A stretch of 9,884 bases of DNA from the NCBI GenBank assembly GCA_030429345.1, contig JAUIFJ010000058.1, forward strand, positions 1 through 9,884. The letters run 5' to 3'. The position numbers and the translations under genes are program-made. The notes beneath the pieces were generated by a model that ran no database searches, was not told where the DNA came from, and was given only the letters and a program-made list of their open reading frames with translations. Source of the stretch: a bacterium (GTDB taxonomy: Bacteria > CAIWAD01). Positions 3 through 9,583 of this stretch are shown piece by piece (positions within the stretch are counted from its first letter, which is position 1; each line of letters begins with the position of its first letter).

Positions 3-887
3 GAGGATCCCGAGTGGGTGTACTGGGTGGAGACCTGGGCGCCGAAGGCGGGGCCCACGCTGGGCAAGCTGTGTGGCAAACCGGTGTCGGTGGCCAAGCA
101 CCTGGCGGCCAACCTGTTTCCCCTGCTGCAGGCCTTCGTGGGCACGAGCGCCACGCTGACCACGACCCGCGGGGACTTCAGTTTCATTCGCGATCGCCTG
201 GGCTTGCCAGAAGGCCGGACCCGCCAGCTGATCCTTCCCAGCCCCTTCGACTTCCGATCCAGCGCACTGGTCGTCGTGCCCGACCAGCTGCCGGAACCGA
301 ATGCCGAAGACTTTCGGGACCGGATGATCGACACGCTGGCTCGGGCGGTGCCTGCGGCTGGCGGCCGGAGCCTCCTGCTCTTCACGTCCAATGCCGCGAT
401 GCAAGAAGCCTGGCATGCCCTTGAGCCCGAGTTCGGCCGTCTGGGATACCGGTGCTTCCGCCAGGGCAGCGCGCCCAGCACGGTGCTGATCCAGCGATTC
501 AAGGACGACGTGTCGAGCGTCCTGTTCGCCACACGGACCTTTTTCCAGGGCATCGATGTCCCGGGCGAAGCCCTATCGCTCGTTGCGCTGGATCGCCTGC
601 CCTTTCCCTCGCCCGCGGACCCGGTCATGGACTGGATCGCGGAGCACGATCCCAAAGGCTGGTTCTTCCGCCATAGCCTGCCGCTCTCTCTGATCACCTT
701 CAAGCAGATTTTCGGCAGGCTGATCCGCCGTGATACGGACCGAGGGGTCATGCTGCTGATGGACGGGCGCGTGAAGACCAGGCGCTATGGTCAGCAGTTC
801 CTGAAGGCCATTCCGGGCGGCATGCTGTCCACCGAAATCCAGGCCATCCAGTCCTTCCTGTCCGACGACGACGACCCTTTCTCGTAG
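3..887 (+). CDS. DinG/XPD-family superfamily 2 DNA helicase, C-terminal part (5' end outside window)
   Basis: The frame is open from the left edge, so only the last 294 residues are seen and the true start is missing. The visible part matches the second half of DinG-type 5'-3' helicases. A motif III-like VGTSATL lies at nt 138-158. A helicase C domain follows with LLLFTS, the FFQGIDVPGE segment near nt 541-570, and motif VI QIFGRLIRR at nt 705-731 followed by DTDRG, whose Arg residues would contact ATP. DinG proteins are ATP-dependent helicases that resolve R-loops, D-loops and G-quadruplexes. The Walker A motif and any Fe-S cysteines would lie upstream, so activity and Fe-S status cannot be judged. 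The protein ends SDDDDPFS, resembling the acidic tip of SSB. It leads into a + strand replication module, 55 bases before the next gene. The family call is firm; a specific orthology to host DinG is not claimed. Confidence 0.88.
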   Translation, partial: EDPEWVYWVETWAPKAGPTLGKLCGKPVSVAKHLAANLFPLLQAFVGTSATLTTTRGDFSFIRDRLGLPEGRTRQLILPSPFDFRSSALVVVPDQLPEPNAEDFRDRMIDTLARAVPAAGGRSLLLFTSNAAMQEAWHALEPEFGRLGYRCFRQGSAPSTVLIQRFKDDVSSVLFATRTFFQGIDVPGEALSLVALDRLPFPSPADPVMDWIAEHDPKGWFFRHSLPLSLITFKQIFGRLIRRDTDRGVMLLMDGRVKTRRYGQQFLKAIPGGMLSTEIQAIQSFLSDDDDPFS

Positions 888-1655: not shown

Positions 1656-1660
1656 TGAGG
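1656..1660 (+). promoter_or_regulatory. Shine-Dalgarno TGAGG deciding the ATG at 1666
   Basis: TGAGG ends five bases before ATG 1666. An in-frame GTG at 1642 would add eight residues but has no ribosome site, so the ATG is the better start. Confidence 0.6.
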
Positions 1661-1665
1661 AACCC

Positions 1666-3732
1666 ATGATCACCGTCGATTCCGTGATCCGTGTGCCCAG
1701 TCGCCTGTTAAGCGCCCTGGCCCGCAAGCAGATTCAGAAGAACCTGAGCTACCCCAACCCCGAGTACCTGGGGGCCAAGCGGCGGGGGAAGCAGCGGCCG
1801 ATGAAGAAGGTGGACGGGAAGTGGGTGCAGATTCCGCCCAGGCTGGAAGGCTGGACCGAGGACCGGACCGAGCTCACGGTGCCCCGCGGGGCCATCGAGC
1901 TGCTCAAGCGATCGATCCATCCCTGGCCGGGTGTGCGCGACCTTCGCATGTTACACGACCGTGTGGCCTTCAAGGCCGGGGGCTGGGCGCTCAGGCCCTA
2001 CCAGCAGAAAGCCTGCGGCGCCATGGTCGACCGTGTCCAGGGCGTGGTGGTCATCCCCGCCGGCGGCGGCAAGACCTTTACCGCCCTGGCGGCCGTCGCA
2101 AGAATCGGACAGCCGACCCTGATCCTGGTCCACACGCTGGACCTGGTGGACCAGTGGGCGGAAGCGATTGAGGAGCAGCTGGGGATTGAGGTCGCCCAGT
2201 TGTCGGCAAAGAAACCGGCGATGAAGCCCGGGCAGTCCCTGGCGATTGCCACCGTCCAGTCCCTGGCGCGCATGGAGGAGGAGGTGTTGCGAAGCGCCCT
2301 CAGCGCCTTTGGCTGCATGATCCTGGATGAAGGACATCACGCGCCGGCCACGACTTTCGACCGGATCATCGGCCAGTGCCCCGCCAAGTACCGCCTGGCC
2401 CTGACGGCCACGCCCGAGCGGGCGGATGGCCTGACCCAGAAACTGACCGACACCTTTGGACCCGTGATCCACGAGACGGATCAGCGGGCGCTGCTGGACC
2501 AGGGCTACTTGGTATCGGCGCGGATCCATGAGATCCACACGGCCTTCACCTTCCCCTACGGCGGGGCAGCCGACTGGCAGGCCCTGGCCGACGCGCTGGC
2601 CGGCAACGCCGCGCGCAACAAGCAGATCCTGGACCTGCTGGCCCAGCTGTACAACGACCCGGACCGCGTGATCCTCGTGCTTTCTGGCCGTGTGGAGGAT
2701 CATCTGGTACCGCTCTACGAGGCCGCTGCTGAACGCGGAATCCAGGGCGAGCTGCTGGTGGGGAAGGTCAAGAAAGACACCCGGCGGCTGATTAGGAAGA
2801 GTGTGCGCGCCGGAGCGGTCCGCGTCCTCTTCGCCAGCACCGTGGCCGACGAGGGGCTCAACATCCCCGAGCTGAACACCCTGCTGCTCACCTTCCCGGC
2901 CAAGAGCGAGAGTCGGGTGGAACAACGTGTGGGCCGCGTGATGCGCGCCTGTCCGGGAAAGGAGCGGGGCGAGGTATTCGACTTCGTGGATAGCGGCGTG
3001 GTCCACGTGGGCGGGGACAGCAAGCCGCTTGTGCGCCAGTACAACCAGCGAAAGAAGGCGTATCACAAGCTGCGGGCAGAGATCGTCAAGGGCGAGCCCG
3101 TGGCGTCGCGCACGCAGCTGACCATCGATGCCGGCGCTCCGATCCTCAAGCCCCCGCGGCTTGGCCCGCAGGTGGCGGGTACCACACGCTTTGCCGTCGG
3201 TATGGATCCCAGTTTTACCCACTTCGGCCTGGTGGCCATCGAACTTTCGTCCTGGTGGCCGGCGGGAATCCAGACCATCGTGACGGCCAAGTCGGACAAG
3301 AAACTGGGCCTCCGGGTCTCCGACGATGACACACGCCGGCTGGAGCTGCTGCTGGCCGGGCTGCACTCGTTTCTCACCCAATATCCCCCGGCCGTCATCT
3401 GCTGCGAGACACCGTCTTCCGGTGCCCAGAGCGCAGACGCCCTGAAAGGCCTGGCCTACGCCAAGGCCCTGGCCTGTGCAGCAAAGGTCTTTCACGAGGT
3501 GCCGACGGTGTGGCTGCTGCCCGGGGAGGTGAAGCAGCGTGTGGGCGGCAGCCTCCTGGCCACCAAGGCCCACCTGGCGGATGTGGTGAAGGCCGGGGCT
3601 TCGCGCACGGGGCGACCCTGGAAGGAAGCCCAGTGGGATAGGACGAAAGCACGCTCCGAGCACCAGTTCGACGCCGCAGCCACCGTTCTGGCCGCCCGTG
3701 ATACCGACCTGTTCCAGATGGCCCTGAAATAG
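1666..3732 (+). CDS. SF2 helicase fused to a C-terminal RuvC-like Holliday junction resolvase (688 aa)
   Basis: One uninterrupted frame carries two enzymes. Residues 1-105 form an N-terminal domain (NPEYLGAKRRG, then VPRG) like that preceding XPB/UvsW-type helicases of mobile elements. The helicase core follows: LRPYQQKA at 109-116, Walker A PAGGGKT 131-137, DEGH box 221-224, LTATPER 246-252 and motif VI QRVGRVMR 420-427. After a linker (about 455-505) comes an RNase H-fold nuclease: VGMDPSFTHFG with D514, CCETPSS with E581, the conserved-looking LPGEVKQRVGG at 618-628, and EHQFDAA with H666 and D669. D-E-H-D matches the active site of RuvC proteins whose third site is His (Thermus RuvC uses D7, E70, H143, D146). 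Helicases of this type move branched DNA, and RuvC cuts four-way junctions with metal ions, so the fusion probably couples migration and resolution (inference). It is followed nine bases later by the primase-helicase gene. Confidence 0.88.
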   Translation: MITVDSVIRVPSRLLSALARKQIQKNLSYPNPEYLGAKRRGKQRPMKKVDGKWVQIPPRLEGWTEDRTELTVPRGAIELLKRSIHPWPGVRDLRMLHDRVAFKAGGWALRPYQQKACGAMVDRVQGVVVIPAGGGKTFTALAAVARIGQPTLILVHTLDLVDQWAEAIEEQLGIEVAQLSAKKPAMKPGQSLAIATVQSLARMEEEVLRSALSAFGCMILDEGHHAPATTFDRIIGQCPAKYRLALTATPERADGLTQKLTDTFGPVIHETDQRALLDQGYLVSARIHEIHTAFTFPYGGAADWQALADALAGNAARNKQILDLLAQLYNDPDRVILVLSGRVEDHLVPLYEAAAERGIQGELLVGKVKKDTRRLIRKSVRAGAVRVLFASTVADEGLNIPELNTLLLTFPAKSESRVEQRVGRVMRACPGKERGEVFDFVDSGVVHVGGDSKPLVRQYNQRKKAYHKLRAEIVKGEPVASRTQLTIDAGAPILKPPRLGPQVAGTTRFAVGMDPSFTHFGLVAIELSSWWPAGIQTIVTAKSDKKLGLRVSDDDTRRLELLLAGLHSFLTQYPPAVICCETPSSGAQSADALKGLAYAKALACAAKVFHEVPTVWLLPGEVKQRVGGSLLATKAHLADVVKAGASRTGRPWKEAQWDRTKARSEHQFDAAATVLAARDTDLFQMALK

Positions 3733-3741
3733 AAAGCCACC

Positions 3742-6717
3742 ATGGCGTACTACAGCGACCTGATCGAGCGAATCAAGCGGGACCTGCCCATCGAGTCCCT
3801 GCTGCCCAAGGAGGCGGCAGGAAAGCGCAGCATCTGCTGTCCGCTGCCCGACCACGAGGACACGGGACCCAGCTTCACCATCTACCGCGAGACCAACAGC
3901 TGGATCTGCTGGTCCCACCCGGGCGGCCAGTCCGCTGGCAGCGTGCTCGACTACCTGATGGCCGAGCGAAAGGTGGAGTTCCGGGCGGCCGTGGAGATCG
4001 GGGCCCAGATGCTGGGCTTGGAAGTCAAACCGCCGACGGAGGAAGAACGGCAGGAGCTGGAGACCTGGCGCCGCCGGGAAGACATTCTGACCACCGTGGC
4101 CCGTGCGTGCGCCGGCTGGCTGCAGGGGGAGACGGAAGCAGCGCAAGGCGCGCGCGCCTACCTCGAAAGGCGAGGCTTTGGCCGGGACTTCCAGCGCCAG
4201 CATCTGCTGGGCTTGGTCGAGATCCGCAAGCTGTATGACATTCGGCCCAAGCATCCGGGGCTGGCGGGCTACGAGCCCGAGGAGTACAACGAGCTGGGCC
4301 TGCGCCGGCTGAATGACAAGGGCGAGTGGAGGCGGCTGTTCTACGACACGCGGATCTCCATTCCCCTGATGCGCCGCCAGCGCGTTGTTGGCATGACCTT
4401 CCGCTCCCTGGATCCGGATCAGCGGGCCAAGTACATCCACCTGCCGGGTCCTGCAGGCCTGTACAACGAGGACGACCTGCATCACCGTGAGGTCGTGCTC
4501 ACCGAAGGCGTCCCCGACTGCTGGACCCTCATGGACTGGGGTGTCCCGGCCGTCGGGAACCTGGGCGTCCATGCCGTCAAGCATGCCAAGAAATTCAAGC
4601 GGATCGATACCCTGACCCTCGTGTGGGACAACGACGAGGCGGGCCGGAAGAACGTCCTGAAGACCGCCCAGGCCATCCAGTCCGAGATGCAGGACGGGGA
4701 AGTCCGGATCCTGCACATCCCGGACGCCAACGACATCAACGACTGGGCGCAGGCCGGCCACACGGTCAAAGAGTTCCAGTCCCTGGTCGACCAAGCTCCG
4801 CCCCTACTGGAGTACATGATCGACCAGCTGCCCGATGAACAGGCGGGCGAGCGGCTGACCCGTGATACAACCAATGACTTGAACGATGTGCTGCGCGCCG
4901 TAGCCAGCCTGTCTGAAGTGCAGCAGGCATTTCCGCTGAAACAGATGGCAAAGCGCCTGGGCTGCAGCCTGCAAAGCCTGCGCCGGGATATGACGAACCT
5001 GGTGAAACAGGACAGTCGAATTCGTGACCGAAACAAGGCCCCGGACAGAGGCGACAACTCAAAGCAGAATGCCCCAGACGGAGGCTACGCCTTCAAGGAA
5101 GTTCGGCGTACGGTAGCGGCACTGGATTTCAACTTCGAGAACGCAAGCCCCATCGGAAACATTGGTCTCTGGCTTAGGCCGCTTCTTTCCGGCGAAGATG
5201 AAGATGGGGATCTGCAGGAATGCCTGATTGAATGTGAGCACCTTGAGAATGGTCCGCGTGTACAGATCACCCCCTATCGGGACAGGCAGGTCGACGATCC
5301 CAAGATGCTCAGGTTCCCGGATAATGACCTGCCCCGTTGGAGCATCGGGGAAAAGCACCCGTTCAGTGTGCCACGCTTCATCAACGATCCTGCGGGCAAC
5401 ACGCCCAATACTTGCGAGCTCTATCGGGAGCTGCGAAAGCTGCTGACCGAGTACATCTGGTATCCGGATGACCACGAGTACGACATCGTGTCCACATGGA
5501 TCATGATGACCTACGTATACCCCATTTTCGGGGCTGTTGGATTCCTGCACTTCAATGGAGGAAAGTCTTCAGGCAAGACCCTGTCCATGGATTTTGTGGA
5601 GCGCCTGGCCTTCAACCCCCGGAAGGCTGAGAGCGTGACGGAAGCTGTTCTATTCCGCATTGCCCACAACAATCGATCGACCTTGATCCTGGATGAGGCC
5701 GAAAAGTTCAATTACCCGAAGAACGGCACACCGGAGCACAGTCAAAGACTGCTGCTCAACGGAAGCTACAAGCGGGGGGCCACGGCCGCACGCATCAACA
5801 TGGACACCGGTAGATCGGAGTACTTCGAGACCTATTCTCCCAAGTGCTTCGGGTCCATTAACGAGATCGATCACGTGCTCGGAGATCGCTGTATCGTGAT
5901 CCGCTGCCTGAAGATTCGCAAGAAAGACGCGCTGACCTGCCTGGATTACGCGCAGACGGATGAAGAGCTGCAGGCGCGCACACGCCTGCTACGGGACCAG
6001 CTGCACTGCTGGTCCCTGACCCATTTCCCCAAGATTCGGCAGCTCTTCCGTTCATCGAATCGGAAGATGGTGCCCGACCTGATTGCCCGCGAACGCGAAG
6101 TCTGGATTCCCCTGATCACAATAGCCCAGCTGGTCGACCAGACAAGTGGGGGAAAGATGCCTTCCCTGTTTGAGCTGCTACTCAAGGCCCATAAGGTGAA
6201 GCTGGAGGAGAAGCAGGAGCGCGAGCGCCGCGAGAACCTGGACATCATTGTACTCCAGGCATTGTTGGACATTTTGGACGACAGAAATACACGTATCAGT
6301 CTCGAGTTGATGAACTTTCCGAGTTGGTATCACAGCGCGAAGCTCGCTACAGAGATCCACACCATGCTGTCAGATGATGGGAGCTGGCCGTTTGAGAAGA
6401 AACTGTCTGGCAACCTGCTGACCCGGATCTTGAAGAAGAACGGGATCGTCAAGGACCATCAGATTCAAAAGAAGCAGGAGGGGTCTTCTCGGGGATATGC
6501 AGTGTGTGTCCTCCCGCAAGCCGTGCAAGAAGCGCTTTCCAGGCTCCGTGGTGATGGTGATGCAGCTGAGGATGGGGAAGGGTCCAGCTCAACAAGCCAG
6601 ACCGAAGAAACACAGGATGGGGGTTCCCGTCAATCACCTGCGGATGCTGAAGCACAGCCCCCTGCCCGGCAGGAACAGGGGTCCATTCAGCTTGATAACG
6701 ACGACCTCCCATTCTAG
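3742..6717 (+). CDS. Primase-helicase: CHC2-like zinc finger, TOPRIM primase and AAA-type helicase with SSB-like acidic tail (991 aa)
   Basis: This is a multidomain replication protein. The N-terminus has a variant CHC2-type zinc finger with C33 (or C32), H38, C56 and H59 around GPSF. A TOPRIM domain follows with E255 in TEGVPD and the DxD pair D296/D298 in WDNDEAG, the metal sites for primer synthesis. Around 385-420 is a short helix-turn-helix-like stretch, then a variable region. The C-terminal ATPase has Walker A GGKSSGKT 606-613, Walker B LILDE 648-652, the LLLNGSYKRGA segment 670-680 and a DR (715-716) likely to be sensor or arginine-finger residues, as in DUF3631-like phage and plasmid helicases. 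From about 937 the chain is a polar disordered tail ending LDNDDLPF. The ribosome site is weak (AGAAAG) and the gene starts nine bases after the previous stop, suggesting translational coupling. It probably unwinds and primes DNA for the element; a defence role is less likely. Confidence 0.88.
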   Translation: MAYYSDLIERIKRDLPIESLLPKEAAGKRSICCPLPDHEDTGPSFTIYRETNSWICWSHPGGQSAGSVLDYLMAERKVEFRAAVEIGAQMLGLEVKPPTEEERQELETWRRREDILTTVARACAGWLQGETEAAQGARAYLERRGFGRDFQRQHLLGLVEIRKLYDIRPKHPGLAGYEPEEYNELGLRRLNDKGEWRRLFYDTRISIPLMRRQRVVGMTFRSLDPDQRAKYIHLPGPAGLYNEDDLHHREVVLTEGVPDCWTLMDWGVPAVGNLGVHAVKHAKKFKRIDTLTLVWDNDEAGRKNVLKTAQAIQSEMQDGEVRILHIPDANDINDWAQAGHTVKEFQSLVDQAPPLLEYMIDQLPDEQAGERLTRDTTNDLNDVLRAVASLSEVQQAFPLKQMAKRLGCSLQSLRRDMTNLVKQDSRIRDRNKAPDRGDNSKQNAPDGGYAFKEVRRTVAALDFNFENASPIGNIGLWLRPLLSGEDEDGDLQECLIECEHLENGPRVQITPYRDRQVDDPKMLRFPDNDLPRWSIGEKHPFSVPRFINDPAGNTPNTCELYRELRKLLTEYIWYPDDHEYDIVSTWIMMTYVYPIFGAVGFLHFNGGKSSGKTLSMDFVERLAFNPRKAESVTEAVLFRIAHNNRSTLILDEAEKFNYPKNGTPEHSQRLLLNGSYKRGATAARINMDTGRSEYFETYSPKCFGSINEIDHVLGDRCIVIRCLKIRKKDALTCLDYAQTDEELQARTRLLRDQLHCWSLTHFPKIRQLFRSSNRKMVPDLIAREREVWIPLITIAQLVDQTSGGKMPSLFELLLKAHKVKLEEKQERERRENLDIIVLQALLDILDDRNTRISLELMNFPSWYHSAKLATEIHTMLSDDGSWPFEKKLSGNLLTRILKKNGIVKDHQIQKKQEGSSRGYAVCVLPQAVQEALSRLRGDGDAAEDGEGSSSTSQTEETQDGGSRQSPADAEAQPPARQEQGSIQLDNDDLPF

Positions 6718-7111: not shown

Positions 7112-8503
7112 ATGCCCCCGAAGAAACAGAACAAGACCGAGCCCCAGCTGGCGGACAGCTACCGCATCTACGGCGTGCAGGCCGACAACTTCCTGCGCCT
7201 GAAGACTGCGAACGTGCGTTTCGACCCCGATTCCAGCATGGTGATCCTGAGTGGCAAGAATGAGCAGGGGAAGACGAGCCTCCTGCAGGCCATCTGGGTA
7301 GCGCTGGGAGGGCCGAAGATCGCGCCCAAAGAAGTGGTCCGCGATGACGCGGAGCGCGCGGAGCTGGTGGTCGACCTGGTGCCGGCGGAGGATCCGCAGT
7401 TCGATAGCCCGGGCCGGATCCGGGTTTGCCGGTCCATCAGCCAGGGCGGGAAGTGGTCGCTGAAGATCTATGCCGACGGCCGGACCAATCCGTTCCGCAG
7501 TCCCCAGGCCCTGCTGGACCAGTTCTTCAACCACCTGGCCTTCGATCCCAGCGAGTTTCTGCGGATGAAGCCTGAGAAGCAGCAGCAGGTGGTGATCCAG
7601 CTGGGCGGCGTTGAGGACCAGGTCAAGAAGCTGAAGGACAAGCGCCAGGAAGTGTACGACGAACGCACGGCGGCCAACACCCTGGTTCGCAACGCCCAGG
7701 CTGCGGTGGATCGGCTGCCCCAACCCCGGCCGGGCGGCCAGGTGGAAGAGGTGAACACGAAGGAGCTGCTGACCCAGCTGGATCAGAGGCGGGAGCAGCG
7801 CCGGCAGAACGAGGAGCAACGGGAGAAGCTGCAGCAGCTGTACGCCGAACACGCGGAGCTTGGACAGCAGATCACGGACGCAGAGGCAGAGCTGGCCGCG
7901 CTGCAGGCCCGCCTCGAGGACTTGCGGTCACGCCAGCAGCAGGTGAAAGAGAATGGGAAGGCCCAGAAGGAAGTGATTGCTGCGCTCGTCGAACCGGATA
8001 CACAGGAGATCGAAGAGAGGCTGGCCCAGGTCGACCAGCTGAACCTGGAGGCCCGGCAGGCCCGGGAATACCGGGAGGCGAAGGAGGAGCTGGCGGAGCA
8101 CGAGTCCAGGGCGGAAAGCCTGACCAACGATCTGTCTGACATCGATACCCAGATCCGGACCGTCCTGGCGGGTGGCAAACTGCCGATCGAGGGGCTGGAG
8201 ATTCGCGAGGATGGTGGCGTGTACTTCGAGGGCCGGCCTTTCGAGCAGGCAAGCAGTGCGCGCAGGCTGGAGATCAGCCTGGCCATGGGGGCGGCGATGC
8301 ACCCGCGCCTGAAGTTCCTGTCCCTGCAGGAAGCCTCGATGATGGACGAGGGCACACGCGCCCGGGTCCAGGCCTGGGCCGAGGAGCACGGGTTCTTCGT
8401 CCTGATGGAGCTCGCGACCAGCGAACGGATCGGCATCCACATCGTGGACGGCGAGATCGAGACCCCGAAGCAGGAGGACCCCGGTGTCCAGCAAGCTGTC
8501 TGA
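7112..8503 (+). CDS. Rad50/SMC-like coiled-coil ATPase (463 aa)
   Basis: The N-terminal half-ATPase contains VQADNFLRLKTANVRF and Walker A GKNEQGKTS at residues 48-56, typical of RecF/Rad50/SMC-type ABC ATPases that act on DNA. A long Gln/Glu/Arg-rich coiled coil spans roughly 155-355, broken by Pro/Gly near 205 and around 290. No CxxC zinc hook and no cysteine occurs in the coil. The C-terminal half has EQASSARRLEISLAMG (ABC signature region, S381/S382), then KFLSLQEASMMDE with D412/E413 in place of a standard hydrophobic-DE Walker B, and a VLMELATS strand. At 463 residues it is much shorter than cellular SbcC/Rad50 (about 1000 or more) and matches compact phage versions. The usual partner, an SbcD/Mre11-type nuclease, is not in the window. 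It likely helps end processing or recombination. Its 3' end overlaps the next gene by 20 bases. Confidence 0.85.
   Translation: MPPKKQNKTEPQLADSYRIYGVQADNFLRLKTANVRFDPDSSMVILSGKNEQGKTSLLQAIWVALGGPKIAPKEVVRDDAERAELVVDLVPAEDPQFDSPGRIRVCRSISQGGKWSLKIYADGRTNPFRSPQALLDQFFNHLAFDPSEFLRMKPEKQQQVVIQLGGVEDQVKKLKDKRQEVYDERTAANTLVRNAQAAVDRLPQPRPGGQVEEVNTKELLTQLDQRREQRRQNEEQREKLQQLYAEHAELGQQITDAEAELAALQARLEDLRSRQQQVKENGKAQKEVIAALVEPDTQEIEERLAQVDQLNLEARQAREYREAKEELAEHESRAESLTNDLSDIDTQIRTVLAGGKLPIEGLEIREDGGVYFEGRPFEQASSARRLEISLAMGAAMHPRLKFLSLQEASMMDEGTRARVQAWAEEHGFFVLMELATSERIGIHIVDGEIETPKQEDPGVQQAV
8472..8477 (+). promoter_or_regulatory. Shine-Dalgarno AGGAGG supporting the GTG start at 8484
   Basis: A full AGGAGG lies six bases before GTG 8484, inside the end of the ATPase gene. 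It makes the non-ATG start credible and indicates coupled translation. Confidence 0.75.
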
Positions 8504-9212
8504 CCCCTTCGAGCGCATTGATCGCTGGCCCGGCGGGCGGCCTGCCCGCTGGGCAACTTCCGAGGTCCTAGACTTAATGGACCTGCTGGACGAGATGCGC
8601 GATGCGGATCACCTGCTGGCCCACGCTGCAGGGATCGCGGACCAGACCTTCCGCGGCGCGTACCTGCTGATGAACCGATCCACGCGCGAGGATGCCAAGG
8701 AAGAGAGGCAGCGCCGCCGGCGGATGAAGCTGCTGGTGCAGGCGTGGAACAAGCTGCAGCTTTTGCGGCGATTGAAGGACGCCACACAGGCTATTTCGCT
8801 CAGCGCCTGGTCCATCCGGCGGGACATGCCGCGCCGCACGGGCTGGCGGACCCGGCGGTCAATGCAACAGCTACTGAAACTGGCTGGCAACCAGGTGCTC
8901 GAGATTGGCCAGCGGCTGCGCCTTCTACTGGAAACGGATCCAGCCCTCCTTGAAAGTGCGCGTGCGCTTTCCATGCACCATCTGCGGATGCAGAAGACGG
9001 AGATGGATGGAGTGGATCTGCGTAGGGTGTTGGCCCGTCACACCACACACCTGGTGCTGGAAACGGCGATCGGTCTGCATCACGGCCTACGCCTCCGCCA
9101 GGGACGAATGGGCGATGACCCCACGAAAGCCAGCTGGGATATGATGGCGGCTTTTGGATCCGATGAAACCGGAACCACCTACTTGGATGCTATTCGACAC
9201 TACTGCTGCTAG
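8484..9212 (+). CDS. Hypothetical helical protein coupled to the Rad50-like ATPase (242 aa)
   Basis: I do not recognise a family. The GTG start has a perfect ribosome site and overlaps the ATPase gene by 20 bases. The sequence is almost entirely predicted helix: an acidic, leucine-rich segment (EVLDLMDLLDEMRDADHLLAH, residues 27-47), a very basic cluster EERQRRRRMK at 73-82, a second basic stretch with IRRDMPRRTGWRTRR at 111-125, and Leu/Arg-rich helices to about 205. There is no signal peptide or clear membrane span. The protein ends in two cysteines. The basic clusters could contact nucleic acid and the helices could pair with the ATPase coiled coil, but neither is shown. The tight coupling suggests the two products act together or are needed in similar amounts. 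Its stop is followed by a 98-base gap, the likely end of the operon. Confidence 0.8.
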   Translation: MSSKLSDPFERIDRWPGGRPARWATSEVLDLMDLLDEMRDADHLLAHAAGIADQTFRGAYLLMNRSTREDAKEERQRRRRMKLLVQAWNKLQLLRRLKDATQAISLSAWSIRRDMPRRTGWRTRRSMQQLLKLAGNQVLEIGQRLRLLLETDPALLESARALSMHHLRMQKTEMDGVDLRRVLARHTTHLVLETAIGLHHGLRLRQGRMGDDPTKASWDMMAAFGSDETGTTYLDAIRHYCC

Positions 9213-9310: not shown

Positions 9311-9313
9311 ATG
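9280..9313. repeat. 9-bp perfect inverted repeat spanning the start codon of the helix-turn-helix gene
   Basis: CATGTAGGC at 9280-9288 is exactly complementary to GCCTACATG at 9305-9313, with a 16-base spacer. The right arm contains the ATG of the helix-turn-helix gene and touches its GAGG ribosome site (9302-9305). It could be an operator bound by the gene's own product, or an mRNA hairpin hiding the start. Which of these, if either, cannot be told from sequence. Confidence 0.5.
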
Positions 9314-9583
9314 CAGGATTCCATCCAGATTGAAGCCCGGCAGGCGCGACTGCAGCTGGCGGTCCTCCGCGCCCTGGGCCACAAGCCAGACCAACCCCCG
9401 GTATTCCTGACCGATGTGGAGACCGCGCAGATCCTGCAGCAGAAGCCGCAGACGCTGGCCAAGTGGCGGTGCACCGGCCGGTACGAAATCCCGGTCACCA
9501 AACTCGGGCGCCAGGTGCTCTACCGGCTGACTGACGTGCTGGACTTCATTGAAAGCCGGACGCACGAGGTGGCCGATGATTGA
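9311..9583 (+). CDS. Helix-turn-helix DNA-binding protein, excisionase/HTH_17-like (90 aa)
   Basis: The start ATG has GAGG five bases upstream. Residues 1-30 are a helix and linker. Residues 31-80 (VFLTDVETAQILQQKPQTLAKWRCTG, then KLGRQVLYRLTDVLDFIESR) have the winged helix-turn-helix pattern of MerR-like/AlpA/excisionase proteins: a first helix DVETAQIL, a recognition helix with QTLAKWR, a wing with Gly-Arg-x-V-L-Tyr, and a final helix. Proteins of this type bind short DNA repeats and act as excision factors or transcription regulators of mobile elements. One clear difference is that the family's common Arg-x-G after the recognition helix is CTGR here. It overlaps the next gene by eight bases. 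The inverted repeat over its own start makes self-control possible. Whether it is an excisionase or a repressor/activator is undecided, since no integrase or att site is seen. Confidence 0.8.
   Translation: MQDSIQIEARQARLQLAVLRALGHKPDQPPVFLTDVETAQILQQKPQTLAKWRCTGRYEIPVTKLGRQVLYRLTDVLDFIESRTHEVADD

Follow-up and report, generated by a model that had tools for sequence, protein, structure and literature searches.

In the RuvABC system, Holliday junctions are handled by separate proteins, with the hexameric AAA+ protein RuvB acting together with RuvA as the motor and RuvC as the nuclease. Archaeal Hef is an SF2 helicase fused to a nuclease and acts on branched DNA; its nuclease is of the XPF/ERCC4 type, not RuvC. 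In archaeal XPB-Bax1, an XPB-family helicase has a nuclease partner (PMC7293015), the two being separate proteins of the nucleotide excision repair pathway, and Bax1 is not a RuvC. The phage helicases T4 UvsW and T5 D10 lack a nuclease domain, the cutter being encoded by another gene, and migration of three- and four-way junctions by D10 was shown experimentally (PMC5180179). RuvC of phage bIL67 is a dimer and makes a ruvABC mutant UV-resistant again (PMC3864405). Jumbo-phage RuvC enzymes were described as having no RuvB-like motor coupled to them (PMC7824862).

The window, i.e., the whole 9,884-nucleotide stretch of bacterial DNA analysed here, carries a gene in which a helicase and a RuvC-like domain are joined in one polypeptide. 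As in RuvABC, a motor and a RuvC nuclease are proposed to act on Holliday junctions, whereas here the motor is an SF2 protein covalently joined to RuvC. The motor belongs to the same XPB-like SF2 lineage as UvsW and D10, with matching motifs and the same phrog_16 family; unlike them, the fusion carries its own RuvC. This domain shares its fold and the D-E-H-D residues with phage RuvC-like resolvases (phrog_159, including SSU5 gp77 and proteins of 70-77 kb viral contigs), to which it is 20-31% identical, and it is also like bIL67 RuvC by fold; the phage enzymes, however, are stand-alone. Many phages place a helicase of the same lineage beside a resolvase gene of the Hjc/RecU type, yet there the genes are separate and the upstream one encodes a resolvase of the PD-(D/E)XK type, unrelated to RuvC, whereas in the fusion RuvC forms the C-terminus. 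The fusion is a new domain architecture assembled from known families.

Reading frame, copies and upkeep of the fusion gene

The coordinates of all features are collected in Table 1. The frame at 1666-3732 was translated into 688 residues without an internal stop. Its start codon is ATG 1666, preceded immediately by GAGGAACCC, as in the sister copies, and on contigs C63 and C2 of the same genome GAGGAACCCATG abuts the stop codon of the upstream helicase gene. A longer start at GTG 1642 was rejected as spurious, as it sits within an insertion (884-1655) described below.

Table 1. Features of the fusion gene and of its neighbours in the window
Feature	Position	Strand	Basis or remark
YoaA/DinG-type helicase, C-terminal part, cut by contig end; upstream neighbour	3-887	+	profiles
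Likely ribosome-binding site GAGG	1657-1660	+	ahead of ATG 1666; GAGGAACCCATG context shared by C63 and C2 copies
Helicase-RuvC fusion gene, 688 aa plus stop	1666-3732	+	translation, profile matches
N-terminal region, residues 1-107	1666-1986	+	kept in phage and plasmid relatives; inside the model's XPB match
SF2 helicase core, residues 108-470	1987-3075	+	profiles, model, structure matches
Walker A of fusion helicase	2056-2076	+	
DEGH motif of fusion helicase	2326-2337	+	
Motif VI of fusion helicase	2923-2946	+	
Variable linker, residues 471-505	3076-3180	+	helicase-only relatives terminate roughly here
RuvC-fold resolvase domain, residues 506-688	3181-3729	+	profiles, fold
Catalytic D514 (predicted)	3205-3207	+	invariant in 59 sequences
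Catalytic E581 (predicted)	3406-3408	+	invariant in 59 sequences
Catalytic H666 (predicted)	3661-3663	+	invariant in 59 sequences
Catalytic D669 (predicted)	3670-3672	+	invariant in 59 sequences
DnaG-type primase (zinc ribbon, Toprim) with C-terminal P-loop region; downstream neighbour	3742-6717	+	profiles
SbcC/Rad50-like ATPase (phrog_1499); downstream neighbour	7112-8503	+	profiles

The window's genome contains three full copies of the fusion, 93-97% identical, on contigs C76, C63 and C2. Two more full copies, at about 63% identity, were found together with contig-edge fragments in a second genus within the family. The parts of the fusion are separate genes in other elements, as would be expected if annotation or assembly had joined two genes. 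Two genomes together carry five full-length copies, each on a contig of its own and each intact, so the fusion is not a frameshift or assembly artefact, and this explanation retains practically no probability. In particular, the frame was open in 5/5 full-length copies near nt 3120-3190, where the sequence-only reading had allowed for a frameshift separating two genes.

The Nei-Gojobori dN/dS was below 1 for both domains in all pairs, with values of 0.05-0.31 across all pairs for the RuvC domain; both domains are under purifying selection. The linker (471-505) was the most variable segment in most comparisons with or within the second genus. The C2 copy (L029, G000:C2) contains a diverged block at residues about 160-215, with a 7-residue insertion before helicase motif II, which forms a mosaic patch within an otherwise very similar protein.

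Helicase and resolvase domains

The phrog_16 DNA helicase profile matched residues 109-455 (E 9e-70), and the scores of Pfam ResIII and Helicase_C exceeded the cut-off. SF2 motifs I, II, III and VI are intact, PAGGGKT, DEGH, LTATPER and QRVGRVMR lying at residues 131-137, 221-224, 246-252 and 420-427, where they had been placed earlier. In a sequence search against solved structures, archaeal and human XPB were closest and T4 UvsW stood lower in the list. The two halves of the fusion were modelled separately. The helicase model, built from 37 window and viral sequences, reached a pLDDT of 92.0 and matched XPB in TFIIH, archaeal XPB-Bax1 and, by Foldseek, T4 UvsW (2oca); Bax1 complexes are among its closest structures. 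With XPB chain 7egb_6, model residues 1-481 gave Z 30.1 over 412 aligned residues, the N-terminal region included. The Hef model NF010337 matched the helicase weakly (E 1e-14), and no Hef-type XPF/ERCC4 nuclease domain was found in the fusion, the C-terminus of which has the RuvC fold. From sequence and model, residues 1-470 are predicted to be an XPB/UvsW/T5-D10-type SF2 helicase, neither RecG nor RuvB.

For the C-terminal half, the phrog_159 profile of RuvC-like Holliday junction resolvases matched residues 461-684 (E 2e-18); against the C-terminal fragment alone it gave E 1e-18 over fragment residues 14-199, spanning the whole domain. With the C-terminus alone, phmmer found E. coli RuvC 1hjr (E 1.8e-5). 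The models for cellular RuvC scored lower, PF02075 at 19.3 bits under a cut-off of 22.2 and TIGR00228 at 24.8 bits under a cut-off of 100.65, and the domain is therefore not filed as cellular RuvC. Its AlphaFold model, built from 59 window and viral sequences, had a pLDDT of 82.7, and the best 12 Foldseek matches were all RuvC chains. Alignment of the model with the 154-residue D. radiodurans RuvC gave Z 18.7 and rmsd 2.3 over 152 residues. The profile, sequence and fold matches of the two halves lie far above chance level.

The catalytic tetrad D-E-(H/D)-D is present in the alignment, and D514, E581, H666 and D669 are invariant in 59/59 RuvC-like sequences, including phage proteins with just 20-28% identity to the window's protein. 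These four residues and the segment LPGEVKQRVGG (618-628) lie exactly where the sequence-only reading had put them, and its assignment of this half to the RuvC fold was upheld by profile and fold alike. By fold, residues 506-688 are a predicted RuvC-superfamily resolvase with putative nuclease activity. Profiles, fold and the conservation of the catalytic residues confirm the central claim of the sequence-only reading, a branch-migration-type motor and a RuvC-fold resolvase in one chain.

In a tree with long branches, the fused RuvC clustered with phage-type RuvC, away from cellular RuvC, and bIL67 RuvC cuts forks besides junctions (PMC3864405). Both observations would suit a general debranching endonuclease, in which a promiscuous RuvC domain mainly cuts forks and flaps for segregation or packaging of the element, the motor just loads it, and Holliday junctions are a minor substrate. 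The modelled fold, however, resembles cellular RuvC more closely (Z 18.7) than it does bIL67 RuvC (Z 14.6), and the partner nucleases of related helicases belong to families named Holliday junction resolvases; we consider a debranching role unlikely.

Rarity of the fusion and resolvase genes beside related helicases

No place covering 80% of the fusion protein was found in any of 50,697 phage and 72,556 plasmid records. No such fusion was found among these records. A profile of the RuvC part was run against two samples, one of 386 genomes centred on the host and one of 388 centred elsewhere, and recovered the fusion in the two genera alone; beyond the family, some 770 sampled genomes lacked it. 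The collections include five genomes of the sparsely sampled host phylum and may lack records very close to the window's genome. Such a fusion was not found in the literature searched, a scope outside which most subscription papers lay.

A single-sequence search of viral contigs with the fusion protein gave no matches. Helicase relatives were examined at 82 viral loci; none had RuvC attached and none of the loci yielded a RuvC relative, and these helicases end 34-63 residues past motif VI, compared with 261 in the fusion (distances taken only from viral helicases where a simple pattern located motif VI). RuvC relatives at 80 viral loci were stand-alone genes with open frames of 185-354 aa, and none of them lay within 6 kb of a helicase relative. 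In 44 viral helicase records, phrog_159 gave no match.

A different resolvase family accompanied the viral helicases. In 22 of these 44 records the phrog_843 Holliday junction resolvase was present; it lay upstream of the helicase on the same strand in 20 of the 22, and in 17 its match was at most about 60 bp from the helicase start, or slightly overlapping. At 64 loci, the gene directly upstream was phrog_843 in 28, matched Pfam Hjc or RecU in 23, and was a VapE-type helicase in 19; since the last class is sizeable, the motor-resolvase pairing is common and not universal. The conserved phrog_843 Hjc/RecU-type gene directly upstream of a UvsW/D10-like helicase was observed across L168-L247, in many phages, and the two seem to form a general motor-plus-resolvase unit. 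The same pair occurs in Bacillus phage BboS-125, where an annotated resolvase stands beside a UvsW-like helicase; its identity as RuvC was ruled out, the protein being Hjc/RecU-like by profile. In sister genome G003, a RusA gene was found upstream of a helicase-only relative. One phage helicase relative (L216:3630-6083) has LAGLIDADG and weak Hint matches before the helicase core and seems to be interrupted by an intein.

Judged from gene order, the XPB/UvsW/D10 lineage is repeatedly paired with a resolvase, and in the fusion the pairing is covalent and with RuvC. That Hjc/RecU, RusA and RuvC stand beside or are fused with one motor lineage is as a motor-plus-resolvase unit predicts. Functional coupling gains independent support, because motor relatives lie directly downstream of non-homologous resolvase genes in many phages.

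The fusion is probably an enzyme that processes branched DNA with a single chain and belongs to a phage-like element able to integrate. The XPB/UvsW/D10-type motor would translocate on duplex DNA and migrate or regress four-way and fork junctions, while the RuvC domain, probably a dimer like characterised RuvCs, would introduce paired nicks into the junction. With the two parts tethered, two motors would sit around one dimeric nuclease, and the protein could act as a one-gene counterpart of RuvAB and RuvC on the element's own recombination or replication intermediates. We infer its DNA substrates, nuclease activity, dimerisation and translocation-cleavage coupling. Against this reading count the RuvC scores under the Pfam and NCBIfam cut-offs, the RuvB and RuvC which the host already has, and phage SSU5, where each half has a relative encoded by a gene of its own, with about 30 kb between the two. 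A more specific proposal, a one-gene resolvasome in which translocation controls the place or time of cutting, with phage UvsW/D10-like helicases pairing with resolvases of interchangeable fold (Hjc/RecU, RusA, RuvC), is put forward tentatively, at slightly less than an even chance.

The fusion and the phage gene pairing both point to UvsW/D10-like helicases as the motor for phage RuvCs and suggest that these helicases can fill the role of a RuvB-like partner. The fusion joins two machines for which related phages have distinct genes, offering a simple system for testing how moving and cutting are coupled; a single polypeptide would allow the coupling of branch migration to resolution to be tested on one protein, with point mutations in the motor or in the nuclease.

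Genomic setting and host

The neighbouring genes (Table 1) place the fusion in the replication module of an integrated element. Near the C63 copy and in the G001:C100 region, tyrosine integrase and restriction-modification genes were found. Terminase, portal and capsid were not among the first 25 of 60 families matched by 43 proteins from these regions, a set that covers part of them. The element may be a prophage, a phage-plasmid or another integrative element.

The position between the YoaA/DinG-type helicase and the primase would also fit recombination-dependent replication restart, with UvsW-like action on R-loops, D-loops and stalled forks, cutting of regressed forks by RuvC, and resolution of recombinants as a secondary task; UvsW and D10 do work on forks (PMC5180179). 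By itself, however, this explanation leaves the repeated pairing with three unrelated resolvase folds unaccounted for, and it is given a low probability. Helicase-nuclease fusions are frequent in defence, and the related element on C63 has an MmeI-type restriction enzyme, which could point to a protein attacking competing DNA. Yet among PADLOC models the generic helicase core was the sole match in the fusion, the neighbours are replication genes and the junction-resolvase residues of the nuclease are intact, so that a defence or restriction role is very improbable. The MmeI-type enzyme is a type IIG restriction-methyltransferase at L028:11526-14339, close to the C63 copy.

The host carries chromosomal ruvB and ruvC genes of its own, which lie near each other on another contig, and therefore the fusion is additional to host junction resolution. 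No RuvB-type AAA+ partner is encoded with the fusion nuclease: the motor is SF2, and ruvB and ruvC are host genes. The earlier description of the system as working without RuvAB is accordingly valid just for that part of the element which the window shows, and not for the host, which encodes ruvB and ruvC.

Related copies of the replication module lie on contigs C76, C63 and C2 of the window's genome (G000) and on C100, C58, C22, C23, C93 and C7 of G001, many of them at contig ends. Several copies per genome suggest multiple co-resident related elements.

No RNA family was found in the window. Two reading frames follow the SbcC-like gene, a 242-aa ORF (8484-9212) without a convincing family match and one encoding a small HTH_17 protein (9311-9583). 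Mosaic structure marks the primase gene: on both sides of 4870-6699 it shares about 95% DNA identity with the C63 copy, while within this segment identity is about 65% or no match was obtained, as if its central and C-terminal part had been swapped by recombination. A clean 772-bp insertion (884-1655) separates the fusion gene from the upstream YoaA/DinG-type helicase gene and is absent in the C63 and C2 copies; the ORF within it (943-1272) has no family match. In G001:C100 the equivalent slot is occupied by a DNA methyltransferase (L031:9691-10926), and from these comparisons the slot looks like a variable cargo site.
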